Shown piece by piece: positions 3-12,934 of a stretch of 17,356 nucleotides of DNA. The position numbers and the translations under genes were made by a program. Position 1 is the stretch's first letter. Every line of letters starts with the position of its first letter. The notes beneath the pieces were generated by a model. The model was not told the origin of the DNA. It searched no databases and saw nothing but the letters and a program-made list of their open reading frames with translations. Where the stretch lies: the NCBI GenBank assembly GCA_001871015.1, contig MNUO01000091.1, forward strand, positions 1-17,356, in the 5' to 3' direction. The DNA is from Candidatus Desantisbacteria bacterium CG1_02_38_46. GTDB taxonomy: Bacteria > Desantisbacteria > UBA1551 > UBA1559.

Positions 3-1280
3 GAAGCTACAATAGGAACACAATTGACCAAGGATGACAAGGTAAGGACAGGTGAAGAATCCCTTGCTGAAATAAAACTTGATGATGGTAGCATTGTAAA
101 ATTGGGAGAAGAAACCACGATTAACATTCTTTCTCTTGAGGAAGTTGGTCCCACAAAAGAAAAAGTTTCACTCTTCAATCTTATAATTGGTGAGATAAAG
201 GCAAAGGTGCTAAAAATTTTCGGTAAACAGGCAAAGTTTGAAGTGCAGACCTCTGCCTGTATTGCCGGAGTACGCGGAACTGACTTTGGGATTTCTGCAG
301 AAGCCGATGAGGCAGCAGATGTAGAAACCTATGAAGGAATCGTCGTCGTAGAAGGGATAAATGAAAAAGGTGAAAGAGGAGCACCCTTAGAAATAAAACC
401 TAATTTTTCTACTCGCATAGAAAAAGGCAAAGCGCCTCTCCCGGCTCAAAAAATAGAAGCTTACCGCAAGGCTCGATGGCAACTCTGGGAGGAAAAGAGA
501 GAGTTGTTTAAGATGGCAGAGGGTCTGGAAAAAATTAAAATTGCGGCTGGGGAACTCAGGGATAAATATAGCCTTGCTAAAACTGACGAAGAAAAGAAGG
601 AAATTGAAAAGGAAGCGCAGAAACTTAAGGCGGTGACAATTAAAATTATACATGATATGGATAAGACGAAAAAAGAGTCCATGAAAAACAAAGAGAAATT
701 TGATAAGGAAGTCGCCAAGGCATCCGAAAAATGGAAAACTTTAAGTCCTGAACAGCGAGCGAAAACAAGAATGAATTATGAAATCTGGAAAAAAACCGCG
801 CCACGCTTAGCATCAATACGCAAAGAGCAATTACGAGCAGCTGCAATCAGATGGAAGAATATGCCTCCTGAAGCTAAAGCGAGAATGATTCGTGCCTTCA
901 GGTTGTGGAAAAATCTGCCGCCTGGACAGAGGAAAGTGATTATTGTGAAAGTGAGAAATTTCAGGAAACTCCCACCCTGGGTTCAAAAGAAAACTATTGT
1001 AAACTATCGCAAGTGGAAGTCACTGCCACCGGGACAGCGCAAGAAGATTGTTGATGGGTATAAGAGGTGGCGCAATCTTCCGCCCGAAACCAGGGAAAAT
1101 GTTAAGGACAGGCTGGAAAAGTTCAAAAAATTGCCTCCGGACAAAAAACAACAAATGCTTAAATCTCACAAAGAATGGCAAAAGATTCCGCCGCAACAGC
1201 GTCGTGAGTGGATGAAAAGATACAGAGAGAAACATCCTGGTACCCCAAGAACCCAAAGGCCTTCGGGACCAAAAAAATAG
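3..1280 (+). CDS. FecR-domain protein with C-terminal Pro-rich helical repeats, 5' truncated
   Basis: The frame is open from base 3, and the first window codons (EATIGTQ) already lie inside the FecR fold, so the true start and any signal peptide lie upstream; the TTG at 24 is not a credible start. Numbering from that TTG, residues 1-130 match a FecR domain: RTGEESLAEIKL, DDGSIVKLGEETT and the hallmark VRGTDF (83-88). FecR domains are periplasmic sensor or scaffold modules in envelope proteins. Residues 145-235 are a highly charged Lys/Glu-rich stretch, probably a helical coiled coil. Residues 238-403 are nine tandem units of the form K-x-LPP-x-QR-(x)9-W, resembling DUF3106-type sequence. The C-terminus is basic. 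Without FecI, FecA or a sigma factor in view, a role in TonB signalling is not supported; a structural or RNA/polyanion-binding envelope role is possible but unproven. Confidence 0.8.
   Translation, partial: EATIGTQLTKDDKVRTGEESLAEIKLDDGSIVKLGEETTINILSLEEVGPTKEKVSLFNLIIGEIKAKVLKIFGKQAKFEVQTSACIAGVRGTDFGISAEADEAADVETYEGIVVVEGINEKGERGAPLEIKPNFSTRIEKGKAPLPAQKIEAYRKARWQLWEEKRELFKMAEGLEKIKIAAGELRDKYSLAKTDEEKKEIEKEAQKLKAVTIKIIHDMDKTKKESMKNKEKFDKEVAKASEKWKTLSPEQRAKTRMNYEIWKKTAPRLASIRKEQLRAAAIRWKNMPPEAKARMIRAFRLWKNLPPGQRKVIIVKVRNFRKLPPWVQKKTIVNYRKWKSLPPGQRKKIVDGYKRWRNLPPETRENVKDRLEKFKKLPPDKKQQMLKSHKEWQKIPPQQRREWMKRYREKHPGTPRTQRPSGPKK
735..1232 (+). repeat. Nine tandem 54-bp (18-residue) coding repeats
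   Basis: Within the FecR protein, the protein sequence repeats with a period of exactly 18 residues: units begin at residues 238, 256, 278, 296, 314, 332, 350, 368 and 386 (numbered from the codon at base 24). The second unit is longer (22 residues). The consensus is (K/R)-(N/K)-L-P-P-x-x-(R/K)-(x)9-(W/F). The Pro-Pro at positions 4-5 and the closing aromatic are the most constant. DNA copies are diverged, so this is an old repeat held by protein selection rather than a recent DNA duplication. Confidence 0.85.
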
Positions 1281-5331: not shown

Positions 5332-6576
5332 ATGAAATTAGCCAGGAGAACCACGCTTATTAATCCTTCCCCTACACTTGCCGTCACCGCAAAAGAAAAG
5401 CAGATGAAGGCGCAGGGGATTGATGTGATTGGATTTGGAGCAGGAGAGCCGGATTTTGACACGCCGATTTATATTAAAGATGCAGCGAAGAAATCAATTG
5501 ACGAAGGATTTACAAAATATACAGCCACATCAGGAATTGAGGAACTGAAAAAAGCAATCTGTCAGAAATTCAAACAAGATAATGCGCTTGATTACGAACC
5601 CTCTCAAATAATTGTCTCCTGCGGCGCAAAACATTCCCTTTTCAACGCAATAATGTGCCTGTGTGAAAAAGGTGACGAAGTCATTCTTCCCTCTCCGTAC
5701 TGGGTCTCCTATCTTGAACAGATTAAACTCTCCCAGGCAAAACCCGTAATCATTGAAACCAGTGAAAAGTATAATTTTAAACTCCCGTATAGAACCTTCA
5801 AACATGCAATCACGCCAAAGACAAAATGTCTCATCTTAAATTCTCCGTCAAATCCAACCGGGATGGTCTATACCAGGGATGAATTGAAAGCAATCGCTGA
5901 CCTTGCAGTAAAGCATGGATTCTATATTATTTCTGATGAAGTTTATGAAAAACTGATTTATGAAGGTGAGCACATAAGTATTGCCTCGTTTGGACCAGAA
6001 ATTAAGAACCTGGCCATTGTGATTAATGGTGTTTCAAAGGCATACTCAATGACAGGATGGCGTATTGGATATGCTGCTGGCCCTAAAGAGCTAATTGCTG
6101 CAATGGGAAACTTGCAGGACCATTCCACTTCAAATCCTACTTCCATTGCACAGAAAGCTGCCCTGGCCGCCATTTCGGAATTGGGACTGTCCCGACCCGC
6201 CTTTGCAGCGGGTACCCCGCCGACCGAAGGTGGTAGAATGGGACTGTCCCCGATGTCGCTGATGGTTAATGAATTTCGCAATCGCCGCGACTACATAGTT
6301 GAAAAATTAAACTCCATCCCTGGAATTTCCTGTCTGAAACCACAGGGTGCATTCTATGCATTTCCTAATATTTCAAAACTGATTGGTAAAACAATTAAAG
6401 GACAGAAAATAACAGGTTCATTATCTCTATCAGAGGTTTTGCTCAATGAAGCAAAGGTAACAGTTATTCCTGGTATTGCTTTCGGCGCTGACAAATACAT
6501 CCGCCTTTCTTATGCAACCTCAATGGAAAATATCAAGGAAGGATTGAGAAGAATAGAAGAGGTGCTGAAGCAGTGA
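5332..6576 (+). CDS. aspC: Class I/II aspartate aminotransferase with an in-frame insertion
   Basis: Fold-type I PLP aminotransferase, subgroup I-gamma, most likely aspartate/2-oxoglutarate. Visible signatures are GAGEPDFDTP (36-45), SPSNPTG with Asn174, SDEVY with Asp202, and the Schiff-base Lys236 in NGVSKAYSMTGWR. Arg391 in the IRLSYA block near the C-terminus would bind the alpha-carboxylate. GGGAG at about 5320-5324 serves the ATG at 5332. The 414-residue length exceeds the usual 385-400 because of roughly 19 extra residues at 285-303 (GLSRPAFAAG...GGRM). This segment is Gly/Pro/Ala-rich, unlike its surroundings, and falls between the AQKAALAA helix and the EFRNRRDYIVEKL helix, where family members have a short loop. 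The catalytic residues are intact, so the enzyme may still work. Substrate could also be another amino acid of this broad subgroup. Confidence 0.9.
   Translation: MKLARRTTLINPSPTLAVTAKEKQMKAQGIDVIGFGAGEPDFDTPIYIKDAAKKSIDEGFTKYTATSGIEELKKAICQKFKQDNALDYEPSQIIVSCGAKHSLFNAIMCLCEKGDEVILPSPYWVSYLEQIKLSQAKPVIIETSEKYNFKLPYRTFKHAITPKTKCLILNSPSNPTGMVYTRDELKAIADLAVKHGFYIISDEVYEKLIYEGEHISIASFGPEIKNLAIVINGVSKAYSMTGWRIGYAAGPKELIAAMGNLQDHSTSNPTSIAQKAALAAISELGLSRPAFAAGTPPTEGGRMGLSPMSLMVNEFRNRRDYIVEKLNSIPGISCLKPQGAFYAFPNISKLIGKTIKGQKITGSLSLSEVLLNEAKVTVIPGIAFGADKYIRLSYATSMENIKEGLRRIEEVLKQ
6182..6250 (+). repeat. 57-bp in-frame palindromic insertion bounded by 12-bp direct repeats, inside aspC
   Basis: TGGGACTGTCCC occurs at 6182-6193 and again at 6239-6250, exactly 57 bp apart and in the same reading frame (Gly-Leu-Ser both times). 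Each copy is itself an interrupted palindrome (GGGAC-T-GTCCC). Between them lies a hairpin ACCCGC (6195-6200) / GCGGGT (6208-6213) with a 7-nt loop, and the insert is visibly richer in G+C than the gene. Removing one copy plus the interior restores the family's normal loop length. This resembles small palindromic elements that insert in frame in genes, such as the Rickettsia palindromic elements; no sequence identity to those is claimed. Confidence 0.65.
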
Positions 6577-6684
6577 AGCACTAAGGAACACGATATTACT
6601 GACCTCTGGAAATGGGAATTGTAAAGGAGAAAAAATAAATAAAAAATTCAAATAAGAAAAATTGAGATAAAATTGGAGGTCTGG

Positions 6685-7923
6685 ATGGCTAAAAATAAAA
6701 TTTACATTATTGATGTAACAAATCGCGACGGTGTGCAGACAGCGCGTCTGGGTTTGGCGAAACTTGAGAAAACAATGATTAATATCTTTCTCAACGAGAT
6801 GGGTGTTTTCCAGAGCGAGTTTGGATTTCCTGTTACAAGCCACGAAACAAACTATTTAAATGCAAATTTAGAACTTGCAAAAATAGGTGTTCTATCCCCT
6901 ATCCATCTGAGTGGATGGATTCGTGCAACTGTAAAGGATGTGAAGATAGCATTTTCAAAAGTTCCAAAACTGAAACATCTCAATCTTTCCATTTCCACTT
7001 CTGACCAGATGATTGTACATAAATTCAATGGCAAGATGGACCATGAAGGAGTTATCAAAGAAATGGTGGAGGCAGTTAAAAAGGCGCGGAGTTACGGAAT
7101 AGAAACTATTGGAGTAAATGCTGAAGATGCCTCAAGGACAAAAATGGATTTTCTTCTGCGTTTTGCAAAAGCAGCGAAACAGGCCGGGGCAGATAGAATT
7201 CGCTACTGTGACACTCTTGGTTACGATAACCCATTCACAATCTATGAACGTGTGAAAAAACTTGCAAAGGAGGTTCGTCTACCAATAGAACTTCACTGCC
7301 ACAATGATTTAGGAATGGTTATCGCCACTTCTATTTCCGGAGCAAAGGGAGCTCTCGATGCAGGAGTGGATGCTTATATCAATACTACAGTGAATGGAAT
7401 GGGAGAAAGAGCAGGAAACGCTGATTTGGCCTCGGTTATTCTTGCCGTTAAATATTCCAGTGGATTTCATAACAAATATCATTTAGATGAACGGATAAAT
7501 TTATCAAAAGCCTGGAAAATTGCAAAATATGCCTCATATGCTTTTGACGTTCCAATTCCAATAAACCAACCTGGTGTAGGTGCAAATGCATTTGCCCATT
7601 CCTCAGGAATTCATGCAGATGGCGCGCTTAAGGACCGGCGCAATTATGAACTGTATGATTTTGAAGAATTGGGGAGAGGGGAACCAGAAGTTATTGAAAC
7701 AGGAAGGCAGATTGTTGCTGGAGAATACAGCGGCGTCAGGGGATTCCGTAATGTCTATGAAAAAATGGAAATAAAGTTCAAGAATGACCAGGATGCACGC
7801 AAAATCTTGGAATTGGTTAGATATGCAAATGTCGCAAAACAGAAACCCTTGGTTGAAGATGAATTGAAATTCATTGCCTGTCATCCCAAAATCGCCAGCA
7901 AGATTTTAACAATGAATCCATGA
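6685..7923 (+). CDS. Homocitrate-synthase-like DRE-TIM acyltransferase, candidate Re-citrate synthase
   Basis: A 412-residue enzyme of the isopropylmalate/homocitrate synthase superfamily, which condenses acetyl-CoA with a 2-oxoacid at a divalent metal. The start ATG 6685 follows GGAGGT at 6675-6680. The metal and substrate motif DxTxRDGxQ reads DVTNRDGVQ (10-18): Asp10, Arg14 and Asp15 are kept, but the usual Glu is Val17. The HxH metal ligands are His204 and His206 in LHCHNDLG, followed by NTTVNGMGERAGN and an NAFAHSSGIHADG block. No LeuA-type regulatory dimer domain is present. Re-citrate synthases (oxaloacetate plus acetyl-CoA) of anaerobes belong to this branch and are commonly annotated as homocitrate synthase, so citrate formation is a good alternative to homocitrate formation. 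The stop overlaps the next ATG (ATGA), implying translational coupling to DUF1284 and the RLP. Confidence 0.82.
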   Translation: MAKNKIYIIDVTNRDGVQTARLGLAKLEKTMINIFLNEMGVFQSEFGFPVTSHETNYLNANLELAKIGVLSPIHLSGWIRATVKDVKIAFSKVPKLKHLNLSISTSDQMIVHKFNGKMDHEGVIKEMVEAVKKARSYGIETIGVNAEDASRTKMDFLLRFAKAAKQAGADRIRYCDTLGYDNPFTIYERVKKLAKEVRLPIELHCHNDLGMVIATSISGAKGALDAGVDAYINTTVNGMGERAGNADLASVILAVKYSSGFHNKYHLDERINLSKAWKIAKYASYAFDVPIPINQPGVGANAFAHSSGIHADGALKDRRNYELYDFEELGRGEPEVIETGRQIVAGEYSGVRGFRNVYEKMEIKFKNDQDARKILELVRYANVAKQKPLVEDELKFIACHPKIASKILTMNP

Positions 7924-8351
7924 AGATTCGTGCACATCATCTCCTGTGTGTTCTGGGCTTTCAGGGACTTGGATACAGCCCTGAATTTATAAAGAAAATG
8001 ACACAGGTGAAACGCATCATAGAAACAAGCTCCAGGCTGCCAGTCAAGATATTGAATTCCTGCGATGAAATCTGCTCTGCTTGCCCCAATCAACAAAATG
8101 GCCGCTGCCAGAAAGGAGAGTATTCGCACAAAAGAGTAAAAGAAACAGATGAAAAGGTTCTTTCTGTGCTCGGGCTGAAAAGCCTGGATATTCTTTCTGC
8201 TGGTAAACTCCTGAAACTTATCAAGAAAAAAATAGATTCTTTTCAAAAACTTGTAAAAATCTGCGGCATATGCGGCTGGCGCGAAACCTGCACATATTAC
8301 ACAGGCCTGCGAAAAAAATGGCAAAAAAAGGAAGGAAGATATGAGACTTGA
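7920..8351 (+). CDS. DUF1284 family Cys-rich protein, probable metal or Fe-S binding
   Basis: A 143-residue protein starting in an ATGA overlap with the upstream synthase. It begins IRAHHLLCVLGFQGLGYSPEF, the recognisable opening of DUF1284. Eight cysteines are present: Cys10, 48, 52, 55, 63, 115, 118 and 124, arranged as CDEICSACPN...C and CGICGWRETC, plus His6-His7. The spacing suggests iron-sulfur or zinc coordination, but cofactor and reaction are unknown for the family. Its stop lies 11 bp inside the RLP gene, so it is wedged by overlaps between the citrate/homocitrate-type synthase and the RLP. This tight linkage is the best clue that it serves the same process, perhaps as an electron-transfer or maturation partner (inference). 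Confidence 0.78.
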   Translation: MKIRAHHLLCVLGFQGLGYSPEFIKKMTQVKRIIETSSRLPVKILNSCDEICSACPNQQNGRCQKGEYSHKRVKETDEKVLSVLGLKSLDILSAGKLLKLIKKKIDSFQKLVKICGICGWRETCTYYTGLRKKWQKKEGRYET

Positions 8352-9648
8352 CCCTAAAGTATTCAGTGTTTTTGAAGGTATAAATTCAGAAGATTATATT
8401 CTCGGATTGTATTATATGGAAGCAGAATCTACAGATATATTGAAAAAGGTGGAGGCAATAGCACTGGAACAATCCACAGGCACATGGGTACCTGTAAGTG
8501 AGGAAACTCCTGAAATTAGAGAAAAATATTCTGCCAGGGTTCTGGCTATTCATGAAATTCCCAGTTATGAAGATGCTCTTCCAGAAGAAAAAGTCAGGAA
8601 ATTTATATTCCTGATAGGGTTCCCCGTAGCAAATATAAACGGACAGATTCCTCAACTTCTGACTGCTCTTTATGGAAATATTTCAATGGCAGGAAAGATA
8701 AAACTGCTTGACATCTTTTTACCTGAATCATTTGTCAAGAATTTTAATGGTCCTAAATTTGGCATTGAGGGTTTGAGAGAATTACTCGGAGTGCAGCATA
8801 GACCTGTTATTGTGGCGATGTTTAAACCCTGCGTTGGAATGGAGCCCAAAACTCTGGGTAAATTACTATATGAAATGGGAGTTGGAGGAGTTGATATAAT
8901 CAAGGACGATGAATTGTTAGCTGACCCGCAATTCTGTCCGGTTGAACAAAGATTGGATATTTGCCTTAAGGCATGCGATAAAGTTCATTCTGAGACAGGC
9001 AGGAAAGTACTTTACGCAATCAATATAACTGATAACTTAGATGTTATGTTCAAGAAGGCAAAATCTGCTATAAAACAGGGAGCTAATTGTCTGATGGTAA
9101 ATGTCTATACTGTGAGTTTTTCTGCAATGAGTGCATTGGCTGAAGATTCTCAAATCAATGTTCCTATACTTGCCCATCCTGATTTTGCCGGCGCACTCTT
9201 CGGCTCACCAAACTATGGATTAACTTCAAGTCTTGTCCTGGGAAAATTAGCCCGACTCTCTGGTGCTGATATGGTGATATATCCAAGTTATTTTGGTAAA
9301 GTTCCGATGGTCAAAGAAAGGGTAATTAGAATTGGCCAGGAATTGACCTCTCCATTCTATCATTTAAAAAGAGTTTTTCCCGGACCTTCAGCAGGACTTC
9401 ATCCAGGAGTAATTGATAAATTAATGGATGACTTTGGAATCGATGTCCTTGTTGGTGCAGGAGGAGGAGTTCATGGCCATCCGATGGGAATATCTGGTGG
9501 AGTAAAAGCATTTCATCAAGCAATCGAAGCAGTTAAAAGCGGAGTCCCCCTGAAAGAAGCCGCCAAAAATAACAAAGAACTTAAACTTGCAATAGAGAAA
9601 TGGGGCACCTTCGAAGATACAAGTCATATTTTTGACCTAACAAAGTAG
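8341..9648 (+). CDS. RuBisCO-like protein (form IV RLP), function unassigned
   Basis: 435 residues with N-terminal and TIM-barrel RuBisCO domains. Aligned by eye to RuBisCO (spinach numbering in brackets), it keeps Glu43 [E60] and Trp49 [W66] in LEQSTGTW, Asn113 [N123], Lys162 [K175], the carbamylated-lysine and metal site Lys188-Asp190-Glu191 [K201, D203, E204] in IIKDDE, His279 [H294], Lys320 of loop 6 [K334], Ser350 [S379] and the phosphate loop GGG at 374-376. It changes three catalytic positions: Cys164 [K177], Pro280 [R295] and Ile313 [H327]. Metal-dependent enolisation of a phosphorylated or carboxylated sugar-like substrate is therefore plausible, while CO2 fixation on RuBP is not. 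The ATG at 8341 follows AGGAAGGAAG. Neighbours do not match methionine salvage or apionate pathways, so the substrate is open. Confidence 0.85.
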   Translation: MRLDPKVFSVFEGINSEDYILGLYYMEAESTDILKKVEAIALEQSTGTWVPVSEETPEIREKYSARVLAIHEIPSYEDALPEEKVRKFIFLIGFPVANINGQIPQLLTALYGNISMAGKIKLLDIFLPESFVKNFNGPKFGIEGLRELLGVQHRPVIVAMFKPCVGMEPKTLGKLLYEMGVGGVDIIKDDELLADPQFCPVEQRLDICLKACDKVHSETGRKVLYAINITDNLDVMFKKAKSAIKQGANCLMVNVYTVSFSAMSALAEDSQINVPILAHPDFAGALFGSPNYGLTSSLVLGKLARLSGADMVIYPSYFGKVPMVKERVIRIGQELTSPFYHLKRVFPGPSAGLHPGVIDKLMDDFGIDVLVGAGGGVHGHPMGISGGVKAFHQAIEAVKSGVPLKEAAKNNKELKLAIEKWGTFEDTSHIFDLTK

Positions 9649-9649
9649 T

Positions 9650-9722
9650 GGCAGAGTTCACTCTGCCTGTCATTGCGACTTTATAGCGAAGCAATGACAC
9701 GTCCCGATGTTACATCGGGACG
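9650..9722. repeat. Three abutting perfect palindromes filling the RLP-downstream gap
   Basis: Inverted repeat 1: GGCAGAGT (9650-9657) with ACTCTGCC (9660-9667), 8 bp, 2-nt centre. Inverted repeat 2: TGTCATTGC (9668-9676) with GCAATGACA (9691-9699), 9 bp, 14-nt loop. Inverted repeat 3: CGTCCCGATGT (9700-9710) with ACATCGGGACG (9712-9722), 11 bp, 1-nt centre. All arms are perfect, and each element begins at the base after the previous one ends. Repeat 2 resembles the widespread TCATTGCGA...GAAGCAATG intergenic palindromes. The block starts one base after the RLP stop and may also act as a transcript end or mRNA stabiliser; no T-run follows. Confidence 0.8.
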
Positions 9723-9743: not shown

Positions 9744-11126
9744 ATGATTGAATTTCATGAACCGTTGGAAACACTTATAAGGCATCCAAAAGCTTTCACA
9801 GGTAAATTGCGTTTTCCAGACCCTTCAAAAATCAAAATTTATGACGATACCTTGCGGGATGGTGAACAGATGCCCGGTGTAGCTTTCAGTCCGGAACAGA
9901 AACTGGAACTGGCAAAATTTCTAAGTGATATGGGCGTGCATGTAATGGATGTTGCATTTCCAATGAATGGAGAATCTGACTGCAAGGCATTACAACTAAT
10001 AGTCCAGGCTCAAAAAAGAGGGGAAATTAGAAAGAATCTTGAGATTCTGGCAATGTGCAGAAGTAATCCTGTGGACATTGATATGGTAATTAAGACTGTG
10101 CAGGAAATAGGAGCATCACCTGATGATGTCAGCGTACTCATACTTTCAACTTTCTCTGACCTGCATGTGAAATATAAACTCGGAAAGGCACTGTTGAAAA
10201 GAGAAGGAAAACCTGTAGACAAATGGCTTGAGACACCTCTTGAATTCTACAGGAAAGCAAATATAAATATGGTATGTGATGCAATAAAATATGCCAGAAG
10301 CAAAGGAATCTCGAGAATTGAATTTGCCTCCGAGGATTCTTCGCGAGGAAATATTGAATACGGAATAAGATGGGCAAAAGCGTGCATTAAAGCAGGTGGC
10401 ACCAGAATGTGTTTTTCTGACACCTGCGGAGTTTTCACTCCAGAAGCTGTTGATTATTACATTCCAAAAATGGTCAAGGCGCTGGACGGTATTCCGATGA
10501 CTGCCCATTTTCATAACGACTTCGGACTCGGAACATTGAATACTGTGCGTGCATTAAGTCATGGTGCAACTTACCTCGGTGTCACTGCAAATGGAATCGG
10601 TGAGCGGGCTGGAAACACTTCAATCCATCTGACAGTAATGGTTTTGAAAGAATTATACGGCGTAGAAATCCCGGGGTTCAAGTACGAAAAGCTCGTGGAA
10701 TTGAGAAAAATGATTGAAAAATACTCTGGAGTTCCGATTCAGCCTCATGAACCCATTATTGGTGAAGGAGTATTTGCACACGAATCCGGGATTCACACCG
10801 CTGCCATAGTGATTAATCCTGCTATATATCAGTTCATCAGAGAAGAAGAAGTAGGAGGAACCAGGAAATTCATATTCGGTAAACACAGTGGCACAGCAGC
10901 TGTGGAAGCAGTCTTGCGAAAAAACGAAGAAAAATTGAAAGAAAATAGAATTGAAATTACTCCTGAACTTGTGCAGAAGGTGCTGGAAAAAGTAAAAATT
11001 ATACGGGAGAAAAAAATCAACTCAGGCCTTTATGAGAAATTTATTGAAGAATATTACAGGAACTACGGAAATCTCGGCATTTCAGAGGATGAACTGATAA
11101 AAATAGTAAGAGAAATAGGAAAATGA
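9744..11126 (+). CDS. Isopropylmalate/homocitrate-synthase-like DRE-TIM acyltransferase
   Basis: A 460-residue enzyme with the full canonical motif DDTLRDGEQ (34-42; Arg38, Asp39, Glu41), HxH metal ligands His255 and His257 in AHFHNDFGLG, ANGIGERAGNT (282-291), HESGIH (346-351) and GKHSGTAAVEA. It should condense an acyl-CoA with a 2-oxoacid to a tertiary alcohol product, as 2-isopropylmalate, citramalate or homocitrate synthases do. Unlike LeuA it lacks the long C-terminal leucine-binding domain; after about 390 there is only a charged helical tail of some 70 residues, as in NifV/homocitrate-type enzymes. The ATG 9744 has GAGGG at 9732-9736. The next gene starts inside its stop (ATGA), coupling it to the FAD oxidase. 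It differs strongly from the other synthase at 6685-7923, so the two probably use different 2-oxoacids. Confidence 0.83.
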   Translation: MIEFHEPLETLIRHPKAFTGKLRFPDPSKIKIYDDTLRDGEQMPGVAFSPEQKLELAKFLSDMGVHVMDVAFPMNGESDCKALQLIVQAQKRGEIRKNLEILAMCRSNPVDIDMVIKTVQEIGASPDDVSVLILSTFSDLHVKYKLGKALLKREGKPVDKWLETPLEFYRKANINMVCDAIKYARSKGISRIEFASEDSSRGNIEYGIRWAKACIKAGGTRMCFSDTCGVFTPEAVDYYIPKMVKALDGIPMTAHFHNDFGLGTLNTVRALSHGATYLGVTANGIGERAGNTSIHLTVMVLKELYGVEIPGFKYEKLVELRKMIEKYSGVPIQPHEPIIGEGVFAHESGIHTAAIVINPAIYQFIREEEVGGTRKFIFGKHSGTAAVEAVLRKNEEKLKENRIEITPELVQKVLEKVKIIREKKINSGLYEKFIEEYYRNYGNLGISEDELIKIVREIGK

Positions 11127-12553
11127 GACAGTACAAAAAAATAGACGAACAGGATATAAATAAAATAAGAGAAATTGTAGGTGAAAATAACATTATCACC
11201 GAACAGGAAAAAATGTTAGATTATTCACATGATGAGTTTTCTTTAGCCAAGATAACTAAAATTCCTGATGCAGTAGCAAAACCCAGAAGTGCCGCAGAAG
11301 TCTCTGAAATTTTGAAACTTGCTAACAAAGAGAGTGTTCCTGTTACACCGCGTGGAGGTGGAACCGGCCTGTGCGGTGGTTGTGTTCCAGTATTTGGAGG
11401 GGTGGTTCTTTCATTTGAAAATATGAACAAACTTCTGGAGATAGACTGTGAAAACCTCATGGCTGTAGCTGAACCCGGCCTGACACTGAAAGAATTCTAT
11501 GAAAATATAGAAAAAGCAGGTTTTTTCTTTCCGCCTCATCCCGGAGAAGAAAGTGCTACTATCGGCGGTGTCGTTGCTACAAATGCCGGAGGAGCCAGAG
11601 CTGTTAAATATGGAGTTATAAGAAATTTCATAAGGGGTTTAGAGGTATCTTTGCCTACAGGAGAAATAATAAATCTCGGTGGTAAGATTATAAAGAATAG
11701 CACAGGATATAATCTTCTAAATCTGTTAATCGGTTCTGAGGGAACGCTGGGTATTGTAACAAAAGCAGTAATAAGCCTTATGCCTCCGCCTGCAGCAACG
11801 ATTATGCTGGTAGTTCCTTATGATAATTTAAGTGACGCCATAAAAACAGTCCCGGAGATAATTCGCAACAAAATAATGCCAATGGCTGTTGAATTTATTG
11901 AACGAGAACTCATAACAGTTACAGAAGAATTCTTAAGAAAAGAATGGCCCTGCAAGGGCGGCGAGGCACACTTAATGATTATACTTGATGGTTCAAGTGA
12001 AGAAGAAATGGAAAAACTTTCGCAGTCCATTGCTCAAACCTGCCTGGACTACAATGCCACTGATGTATTTGTTGCAAATACAATGCAAAAACAGCAGGAT
12101 GTAATGGATATCCGCAGTCAGATTTATGAAGCTTTGAAACCACAAACAATCGAAGCTCTGGATATTACCGTCCCAAGAGCAGAAATAGCCAATCATGTTG
12201 AAAAAGTCCATGAAATCTCAAAAAAGTATGGAATGTGGTTACCAACGTGCGGCCATGCTGCAGATGGAAATCTTCACACTTTTCTCATGAAGACCTGTAT
12301 GAAAGACAGAAAGCTGGACGATGCGGAAATAGAAGGTTGGAAAGAAAAATATCCTCTCGTGCGAAAAGAACTCCATGAAGACTGCAAAATGCGTGGAGGA
12401 ATTATCTCAGGTGAGCATGGGATAGGATTAGTAAAAAAAGAATATTTGCCGCTAAGTGTTGATAGAAAACAAATTGAATTGATGAAAATGATTAAAAAAA
12501 TATTTGACCCAAACAAGATCCTCAATCCCGGCAAAATATTTGACATAGATTAA
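11123..12553 (+). CDS. GlcD-type FAD-linked 2-hydroxyacid dehydrogenase
   Basis: A 476-residue flavoprotein of the vanillyl-alcohol-oxidase/PCMH superfamily, D-lactate/glycolate/D-2-hydroxyglutarate branch. The FAD pyrophosphate loop is PRGGGTGLCGG (76-86), followed by HPGEESATIGGVVATNAGG (139-157) and IGSEGTLGI. The C-terminal FAD-oxidase domain has GHAADGNLH (377-385), ISGEHGIG (428-435) and DPNKILNPGKI (462-472). It oxidises a D-2-hydroxyacid to a 2-oxoacid. It starts in an ATGA overlap with the upstream acyltransferase, so a shared route is likely: 2-oxoacid supply for condensation is one reading. No GlcE or GlcF (iron-sulfur subunit) is adjacent, so the electron acceptor is not evident. 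The true substrate (glycolate, lactate or other) is undetermined. Confidence 0.87.
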   Translation: MRQYKKIDEQDINKIREIVGENNIITEQEKMLDYSHDEFSLAKITKIPDAVAKPRSAAEVSEILKLANKESVPVTPRGGGTGLCGGCVPVFGGVVLSFENMNKLLEIDCENLMAVAEPGLTLKEFYENIEKAGFFFPPHPGEESATIGGVVATNAGGARAVKYGVIRNFIRGLEVSLPTGEIINLGGKIIKNSTGYNLLNLLIGSEGTLGIVTKAVISLMPPPAATIMLVVPYDNLSDAIKTVPEIIRNKIMPMAVEFIERELITVTEEFLRKEWPCKGGEAHLMIILDGSSEEEMEKLSQSIAQTCLDYNATDVFVANTMQKQQDVMDIRSQIYEALKPQTIEALDITVPRAEIANHVEKVHEISKKYGMWLPTCGHAADGNLHTFLMKTCMKDRKLDDAEIEGWKEKYPLVRKELHEDCKMRGGIISGEHGIGLVKKEYLPLSVDRKQIELMKMIKKIFDPNKILNPGKIFDID

Positions 12554-12574: not shown

Positions 12575-12934
12575 TTGCAAATTCTTAGTTATATTATTCT
12601 TGGTTTGACAGCTGGAGTTTTGAGTGGTTTTATGGGCATTGGAGGAGGAGTAATAATTATTCCAATACTCGTATATGTTTTTGGCTTGACACAGATTCAG
12701 GCACAGGGCACTTCACTCGCTGCTCTTTTGCCACCAATCGGACTACTTGCTTTTTTAAGATATTACTACAGCGGAAATGCCGATTTAAAAGTGGGCTTGC
12801 TCATTGCTGCAGGATTCTTTTTCGGTGGACTTCTTGGAGCGATTTTTGCCCAGCCTGTTCCCGATGTCTTGCTCAAGAGAATCTTCGGCATTTTTCTCCT
12901 CATCATAGCTGTCAGGATGTGCATTGGCAAATAG
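12575..12934 (+). CDS. Half-size TauE/SafE-family membrane protein
   Basis: A 119-residue, very hydrophobic protein with about four transmembrane segments. The opening LGLTAGVLSGFMGIGGGVIIIPIL is the conserved N-repeat motif of the TauE/SafE (DUF81) exporters, with the GxGGG and following Pro; QAQGTSLAALLPP is also typical. Full-length members are about 250 residues made of two such halves, so this is a single-repeat version that would have to pair with itself. The start is TTG at 12575: the strong site AAAGGAGGT (12561-12569) lies 5 bases upstream and no ATG is suitably placed. The frame ends cleanly, with no sign of a lost second half in the next 30 bases. Export of a sulfonate, sulfite or small organic acid is the family role; substrate unknown. 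Confidence 0.8.
   Translation: MQILSYIILGLTAGVLSGFMGIGGGVIIIPILVYVFGLTQIQAQGTSLAALLPPIGLLAFLRYYYSGNADLKVGLLIAAGFFFGGLLGAIFAQPVPDVLLKRIFGIFLLIIAVRMCIGK

Follow-up and report, generated by a model that had tools for sequence, protein, structure and literature searches.

The RLP gene and its surroundings

The window, by which we mean the whole stretch of 17,356 nucleotides analyzed here, comes from Candidatus Desantisbacteria bacterium CG1_02_38_46 (contig MNUO01000091.1). It contains a full-length gene for a form IV RuBisCO-like protein, hereafter the RLP (Table 1; open reading frames in the window were called with a simple script). The start of this gene is overlapped by a gene for a DUF1284 protein, and a gene for a condensing enzyme of the HMGL family follows it. 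The gap between the RLP and HMGL genes measures 95 bp, mostly inverted repeats; it is 12 bp in the closest related genome, G001. Elsewhere, the window encodes one protein that combines a FecR domain with three DUF3106 stretches behind it, and a TauE/SafE permease that matches about half of its Pfam profile (positions 130-237 of 237) and is conserved across 119 aa in G001.

Table 1. Features of the window (RuBisCO residue numbers in parentheses)
Feature	Position	Strand	Source
Protein with FecR domain and three DUF3106 stretches	24-1280		
Class I aminotransferase, then NifV-like HMGL	5332-7923		
Second HMGL (HMGL2), NifV-like	6673-7923		
DUF1284 protein, 11 bp overlap with RLP start; probably outside the module	7920..8351	+	
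RuBisCO-like protein (form IV RLP), full-length, 435 aa	8341..9648	+	
E43 codon (E60), kept; Gly in MtnW	8467..8469	+	residue table
N113 codon (N123), kept; Lys in MtnW	8677..8679	+	residue table
K162-P163-C164 codons (K175 kept, K177 to Cys)	8824..8832	+	residue table
KDDE metal site K188-E191 (K201, D203, E204), clade-invariant	8902..8913	+	
H279-P280 (H294 kept; R295 to Pro, as in MtnW)	9175..9180	+	residue table
I313 (H327 lost)	9277..9279	+	residue table
K320 (loop-6 K334), kept; Ser/Gly/Asn in MtnW	9298..9300	+	residue table
Three perfect inverted repeats, back to back, in RLP-HMGL gap	9650..9722	.	
HMGL-family (LeuA/CimA/homocitrate-synthase-like) condensing enzyme, 460 aa; conserved RLP partner	9744..11126	+	
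GlcD-like FAD-linked 2-hydroxyacid dehydrogenase, 4 bp overlap with HMGL	11123..12553	+	
TauE/SafE permease	12575-12934		
LsrF-like thiolase	13156-14049		

Fold and active-site residues

Both RuBisCO large-chain domains are recognizable in the RLP (Pfam RuBisCO_large, E 3e-51; RuBisCO_large_N, E 2e-10), and its gene is under strong purifying selection (pN 0.11, pS 0.89 between the window and G001). The large-chain fold with N- and C-terminal domains, seen both by Pfam and in the predicted structure, and the loss of residues essential for RuBP carboxylation (K177C, R295P and H327I) mark the protein as form IV. The AlphaFold2 model has a pLDDT of 92.8 and a pTM of 0.91. Among solved structures, MtnW enolases match this model best (Z 50-51, ~40% identity), including 2oem, a complex with the monophosphate 2,3-diketohexane-1-phosphate. 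Photo RLPs and form III RuBisCOs are the next-nearest.

We aligned about 95 RLPs and RuBisCOs into a residue table, in which the RLP follows P0001 numbering. Its residues, with RuBisCO equivalents in parentheses, are E43 (E60), T48 (T65), W49 (W66), N113 (N123), K162 (K175), C164 (K177), K188-D190-E191 (K201-D203-E204), H279 (H294), P280 (R295), I313 (H327), K320 (K334), S350 (S379) and G374/G375 (G403/G404).

A first-pass annotation of this DNA had reported the KDDE motif and equivalents of K175, H294, K334 and the phosphate loop, as well as Cys, Pro and Ile at positions 177, 295 and 327. The residue table confirms all of these. The structure prediction and active-site comparison that it had called for gave a confident RuBisCO-like fold nearest to MtnW, with the residues as it had listed them. 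However, the weight that it gave to the three substitutions was misplaced, as MtnW itself has P295, V/M/C/A at 177 and L/I at 327. Judging from the alignment, what truly distinguishes the RLP from MtnW is the retention of E60, N123 and K334, which the annotation had overlooked. The MtnW-type combination of a catalytic lysine at position 123 (K98 of the G. kaustophilus enzyme, the MtnW base) and a glycine at position 60 is absent from the RLP, which has N113 and E43 there.

Phylogenetic placement

A scan of named genomes yielded 406 relatives of the RLP; we kept and read the 80 best. In the tree, the RLP belongs to a clade of eight loci (support 99/98) that unites Firestonebacteria and a single Elusimicrobiota with the two-genome phylum of the window itself; the hosts are little-known, probably anaerobic bacteria. 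The MtnW clade (100/100) excludes the RLP, and the branch joining both clades has support of 97/98. The AU test rejects a tree in which the query joins MtnW and leaves its own clade (p-AU 3e-8), while a topology with MtnW lying outside stays compatible (p-AU 0.28). The RLP clade is probably the sister of MtnW.

Every clade row in the residue table has E60, N123, K175, C177, KDDE, H294, P295, I/V327 and K334, and no characterized RLP among the about 95 sequences has the set E60-N123-K175-C177-H294-P295-I/V327-K334. Nearly every member of a large set of related RLPs likewise has Cys at 177. In addition, a large group of RLPs from anaerobes, which surrounds the RLP clade and MtnW in the tree, has nearly the same active-site set.

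The tree that the first-pass annotation had proposed, together with the AU test, thus places the RLP outside every characterized RLP clade included. The clade may already have been seen under another name, for instance as IV-GOS, IV-AMC or IV-NonPhoto. The DeepYkr group consisted of two divergent sequences. Our literature search on this clade found no paper naming it; PMC7325909 describes an actinobacterial form IV RLP of unknown function.

Automatic annotation may label the RLP as MtnW, given that it passes one curated cut-off (PRK09549, an NCBIfam model of MtnW; 427 bits, cut-off 409). This score and the nearest solved structures would fit a divergent MtnW acting as the 2,3-diketo-5-methylthiopentyl-1-phosphate enolase of methionine salvage. 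However, another MtnW model, TIGR03332, gives 375 bits with a cut-off of 513.6, asparagine replaces the MtnW lysine, and E60 and K334 also differ. Since the RLP groups with its own clade outside MtnW, the label is doubtful and probably wrong. The neighborhood also differs from that of MtnW, as neither MtnX nor MtnB, both present at 4/4 MtnW-type loci compared, lies beside the RLP gene. No MtnA homolog was found in the window's genome (G000, 87.8% complete) or in G001 (93% complete), an absence weakened by this incompleteness. Lacking MtnA in the genome and MtnX and MtnB alongside, the RLP is unlikely to act in methionine salvage, and we regard a divergent MtnW as highly improbable. The first-pass annotation had named placement inside a characterized RLP clade, or homologs in methionine-salvage operons, as evidence against its own reading; the window holds no salvage partners, and the RLP falls outside the MtnW clade.

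A conserved HMGL partner

The survey of homologous neighborhoods suggested by the first-pass annotation revealed one constant partner. The HMGL gene lies directly 3′ of the RLP gene in all nine clade loci with room for it. These are eight counted loci plus L048, whose HMGL copy runs off the contig (the copies at L034 and L048 are both truncated); at two further clade loci, outside this count, the contig stops within the RLP gene or shortly behind it. Across 21 pairs, RLP identity tracks HMGL identity (r 0.96), and in a Firestonebacteria-type genome, G086, the pair stands alone, with ribosomal protein genes after it. In a narrow set of lineages, such linkage could also be a conserved neighborhood without a shared pathway.

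Other neighbors are less constant. The GlcD-like gene follows the pair only in the window and G001. An overlap of the RLP gene with both the DUF1284 and HMGL genes had been claimed. The former does overlap, but is a local neighbor only: it occurs at none of the other RLP loci compared, and we rejected it as a partner because it was found neither in G001 nor near the RLP in Firestonebacteria. The latter is the right partner gene, but is separated from the RLP gene by the gap described above. The aspartate aminotransferase, HMGL2, TauE and LsrF genes were also rejected as partners; in G001 they sit on another contig than the RLP gene, and none is near the Firestonebacteria RLP. The window therefore joins two units of G001. 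Across the clade, the RLP gene has no kinase or phosphatase gene as a conserved neighbor. The earlier statement that partners from known RLP pathways are missing holds, as the window has neither methionine-salvage nor four-carbon-acid-sugar kinase partners.

The HMGL partner has an additional stretch near residues 135-165 that splits its Pfam match, and it is an enzyme of the LeuA/CimA/homocitrate-synthase type that scores below every curated cut-off. It had been called a Re-citrate-type synthase, in which case the RLP-HMGL pair would serve central metabolism at the entry to the TCA cycle. Ordinary citrate synthase is indeed missing from G000, G001, G086 and G226, and in G226 and G086 an aconitase-type hydratase, isocitrate dehydrogenase and malate dehydrogenase occur in one gene run, so some enzyme presumably makes citrate there. 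However, most RLP-free genomes with relatives of the HMGL partner have ordinary citrate synthase (PF00285), and the strong PF00285 matches in four of them, whose HMGL relatives are 43-52% identical, count against the label. On this indirect evidence, the second, NifV-like HMGL appears to be the likelier Re-citrate synthase: it is close to an aminotransferase gene in 4/4 of the above genomes, and its nearest relatives are in G078 and G220, both without PF00285. A Re-citrate synthase as the RLP partner is accordingly very unlikely. Named Re-citrate synthases were sought in plasmids, where we found only homocitrate/isopropylmalate synthases and unannotated matches (30-35%). The pairing of a class I aminotransferase with the NifV-like HMGL recurs in G001 (with one gene between), G086 and G226.

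The LsrF-like thiolase of the window is far above its curated cut-off (500 bits, cut-off 297), in a genome without LuxS. The RLP could be imagined as an LsrG-like isomerase of a phosphorylated pentanedione that works with this thiolase; the chemistry would be a RuBisCO-type enolization, and related RLPs of anaerobes repeatedly have FGGY kinases and SorC/DeoR regulators as neighbors. Nonetheless, the LsrF gene of G001 is on the other contig with TauE and HMGL2, no LsrF relative was found in G226, and G086 has only a 49% relative with an in-frame stop. LuxS is absent from 4/4 genomes. We consider this isomerase extremely improbable, and an autoinducer-2-like role was rejected because LuxS is missing and LsrF is not conserved.

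Proposed function

The first-pass annotation had proposed an RLP with an unassigned substrate. This stands, because the protein lies outside the characterized clades and has neither salvage or kinase partners nor MtnA in its genome. That it enolizes the monophosphate of a keto compound is fairly well supported.

In RuBisCO, R295 and H327 are ligands of the second RuBP phosphate, and E60, N123 and K334 lie around the carboxylate formed from CO2. In the RLP, carbamylated K188, D190 and E191 would hold Mg, and the substrate phosphate would sit in the retained P1 site (T48, W49, G352, G374, G375). The second phosphate site appears to be lost (R295P, H327I), as in MtnW, which suggests a single-phosphate substrate with a non-phosphorylated far end. 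K162 and/or H279 would serve as acid/base in its enolization. Because E60, N123 and K334 are kept in the RLP and lost in MtnW, we infer a probable carboxylate at this position, on either the substrate or the product. The simplest carboxylate chemistry would be decarboxylation of a 3-keto-acid phosphate, as in OiaX; by analogy with the few characterized RLPs, the RLP perhaps acts in this way. The HMGL enzyme would then combine the RLP product, or a 2-oxoacid made from it, with acetyl-CoA.

Alternatively, K334, E60 and N123 may merely be ancestral residues that are still retained, and the RLP may act on a keto-pentose or keto-hexose monophosphate purely as an enolase or carbonyl-shift isomerase, without any carboxylate. 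MtnW and DeepYkr, the characterized relatives on its side of the tree, act so, P295 and A380 are common to the RLP and MtnW, and in G001 genes for ribulose-phosphate 3-epimerase and a sugar isomerase are just upstream of the RLP gene. However, K334, which RuBisCOs and OiaX keep, is lost in the relatives without carboxylate chemistry (Ser/Gly/Asn in MtnW, Arg in the DeepYkr isomerase group), whereas all RLP-clade rows keep K334, E60 and N123. A pure enolase or isomerase is possible but rather doubtful.

We favor, with a confidence that is about evenly balanced, a catalytically competent RLP that is distinct from MtnW, forms a two-gene module with the HMGL enzyme, and enolizes a keto-monophosphate, probably handling a carboxylate. 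More specifically, the pair might form an undescribed two-enzyme route, in which decarboxylation of, or carboxylate transfer on, a monophosphorylated keto-acid would yield a 2-oxoacid for condensation with acetyl-CoA, the clade preserving the active site ancestral to MtnW. This detailed version is a tentative proposal and on balance unlikely.

Assigned RLP reactions are few. The RLP is intact, a close cousin of MtnW yet not MtnW itself, and with its constant HMGL partner it points to a reaction of RuBisCO type without an assignment so far. Since its clade probably adjoins MtnW yet keeps E60, N123 and K334, it could illustrate the change from a carboxylate-handling active site to a plain enolase. 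The HMGL enzyme, as the sole conserved partner, is a concrete handle on the substrate. Nearly the same active-site set is found in the related loci read, out of some 400 RLPs without assigned function in anaerobic bacteria and archaea.

Comparison with known RLPs

MtnW (IV-YkrW; PDB 2oek/2oem, 2zvi, 4nas), a 2,3-diketo-5-methylthiopentyl-1-phosphate enolase, is the closest characterized relative. It shares with the RLP the fold (Z about 50), about 40% identity, KDDE, K175, H294, P295 and A380, and both have lost K177 and H327. The RLP differs in having E60, N123 and K334 (Gly, Lys and Ser/Gly/Asn in MtnW), in forming a separate clade, in its HMGL partner instead of MtnX/MtnB, and in a genome without MtnA.

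RLPs also decarboxylate 3-oxo-isoapionate-4-phosphate (PMC6302742). This decarboxylase, OiaX, has KDDE, K175, H294 and K334 in common with the RLP. Unlike the RLP, OiaX keeps R295, has D60, G123 and Q327, and is partnered by a four-carbon-acid-sugar kinase. The RLP scores 215 bits with the OiaX NCBIfam model (cut-off 700); by this score, residue 295 and the kinase partner, it is not one of the OiaX/four-carbon-acid-sugar RLPs.

The DeepYkr RLP, a 5-methylthioribulose-1-phosphate isomerase, shares the side of the tree, P295 and I327 with the RLP. However, it has R334 and a cupin partner, and a long branch sets it apart; by clade placement and cupin partner, the RLP is not a DeepYkr protein.

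A different RLP, at L040:14505-18631, keeps R295, H327 and K334 and has C177. Its gene is followed by a GlcD-like gene, whose product is 37% identical to the GlcD of the window, and by a gene for an iron-sulfur CCG protein.

The uncharacterized RLPs of anaerobes (L055-L126), from Syntrophomonas, Chloroflexota, Archaeoglobus, Asgard and Ca. Formimonas, are 43-51% identical to the RLP. Three of their genes (L101, L104, L105) occur in one Eubacteriaceae MAG (JAAXUP01). Among 70 loci of this group, the recurring neighbors are FGGY kinase (27), PEP_hydrolase-like PF09370 (14), saccharopine-dehydrogenase-like (13), UPF0261 (11), class III aminotransferase (11) and SorC/DeoR regulator (9). These proteins resemble the RLP in E60, N123, K175, mostly C177, H294, V/I327 and K334. 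By contrast, their residue 295 is mostly Met/Ser/Leu, and their partners are FGGY kinase, aminotransferase, saccharopine-dehydrogenase-like, PEP_hydrolase-like and UPF0261 proteins, unlike those of the RLP.
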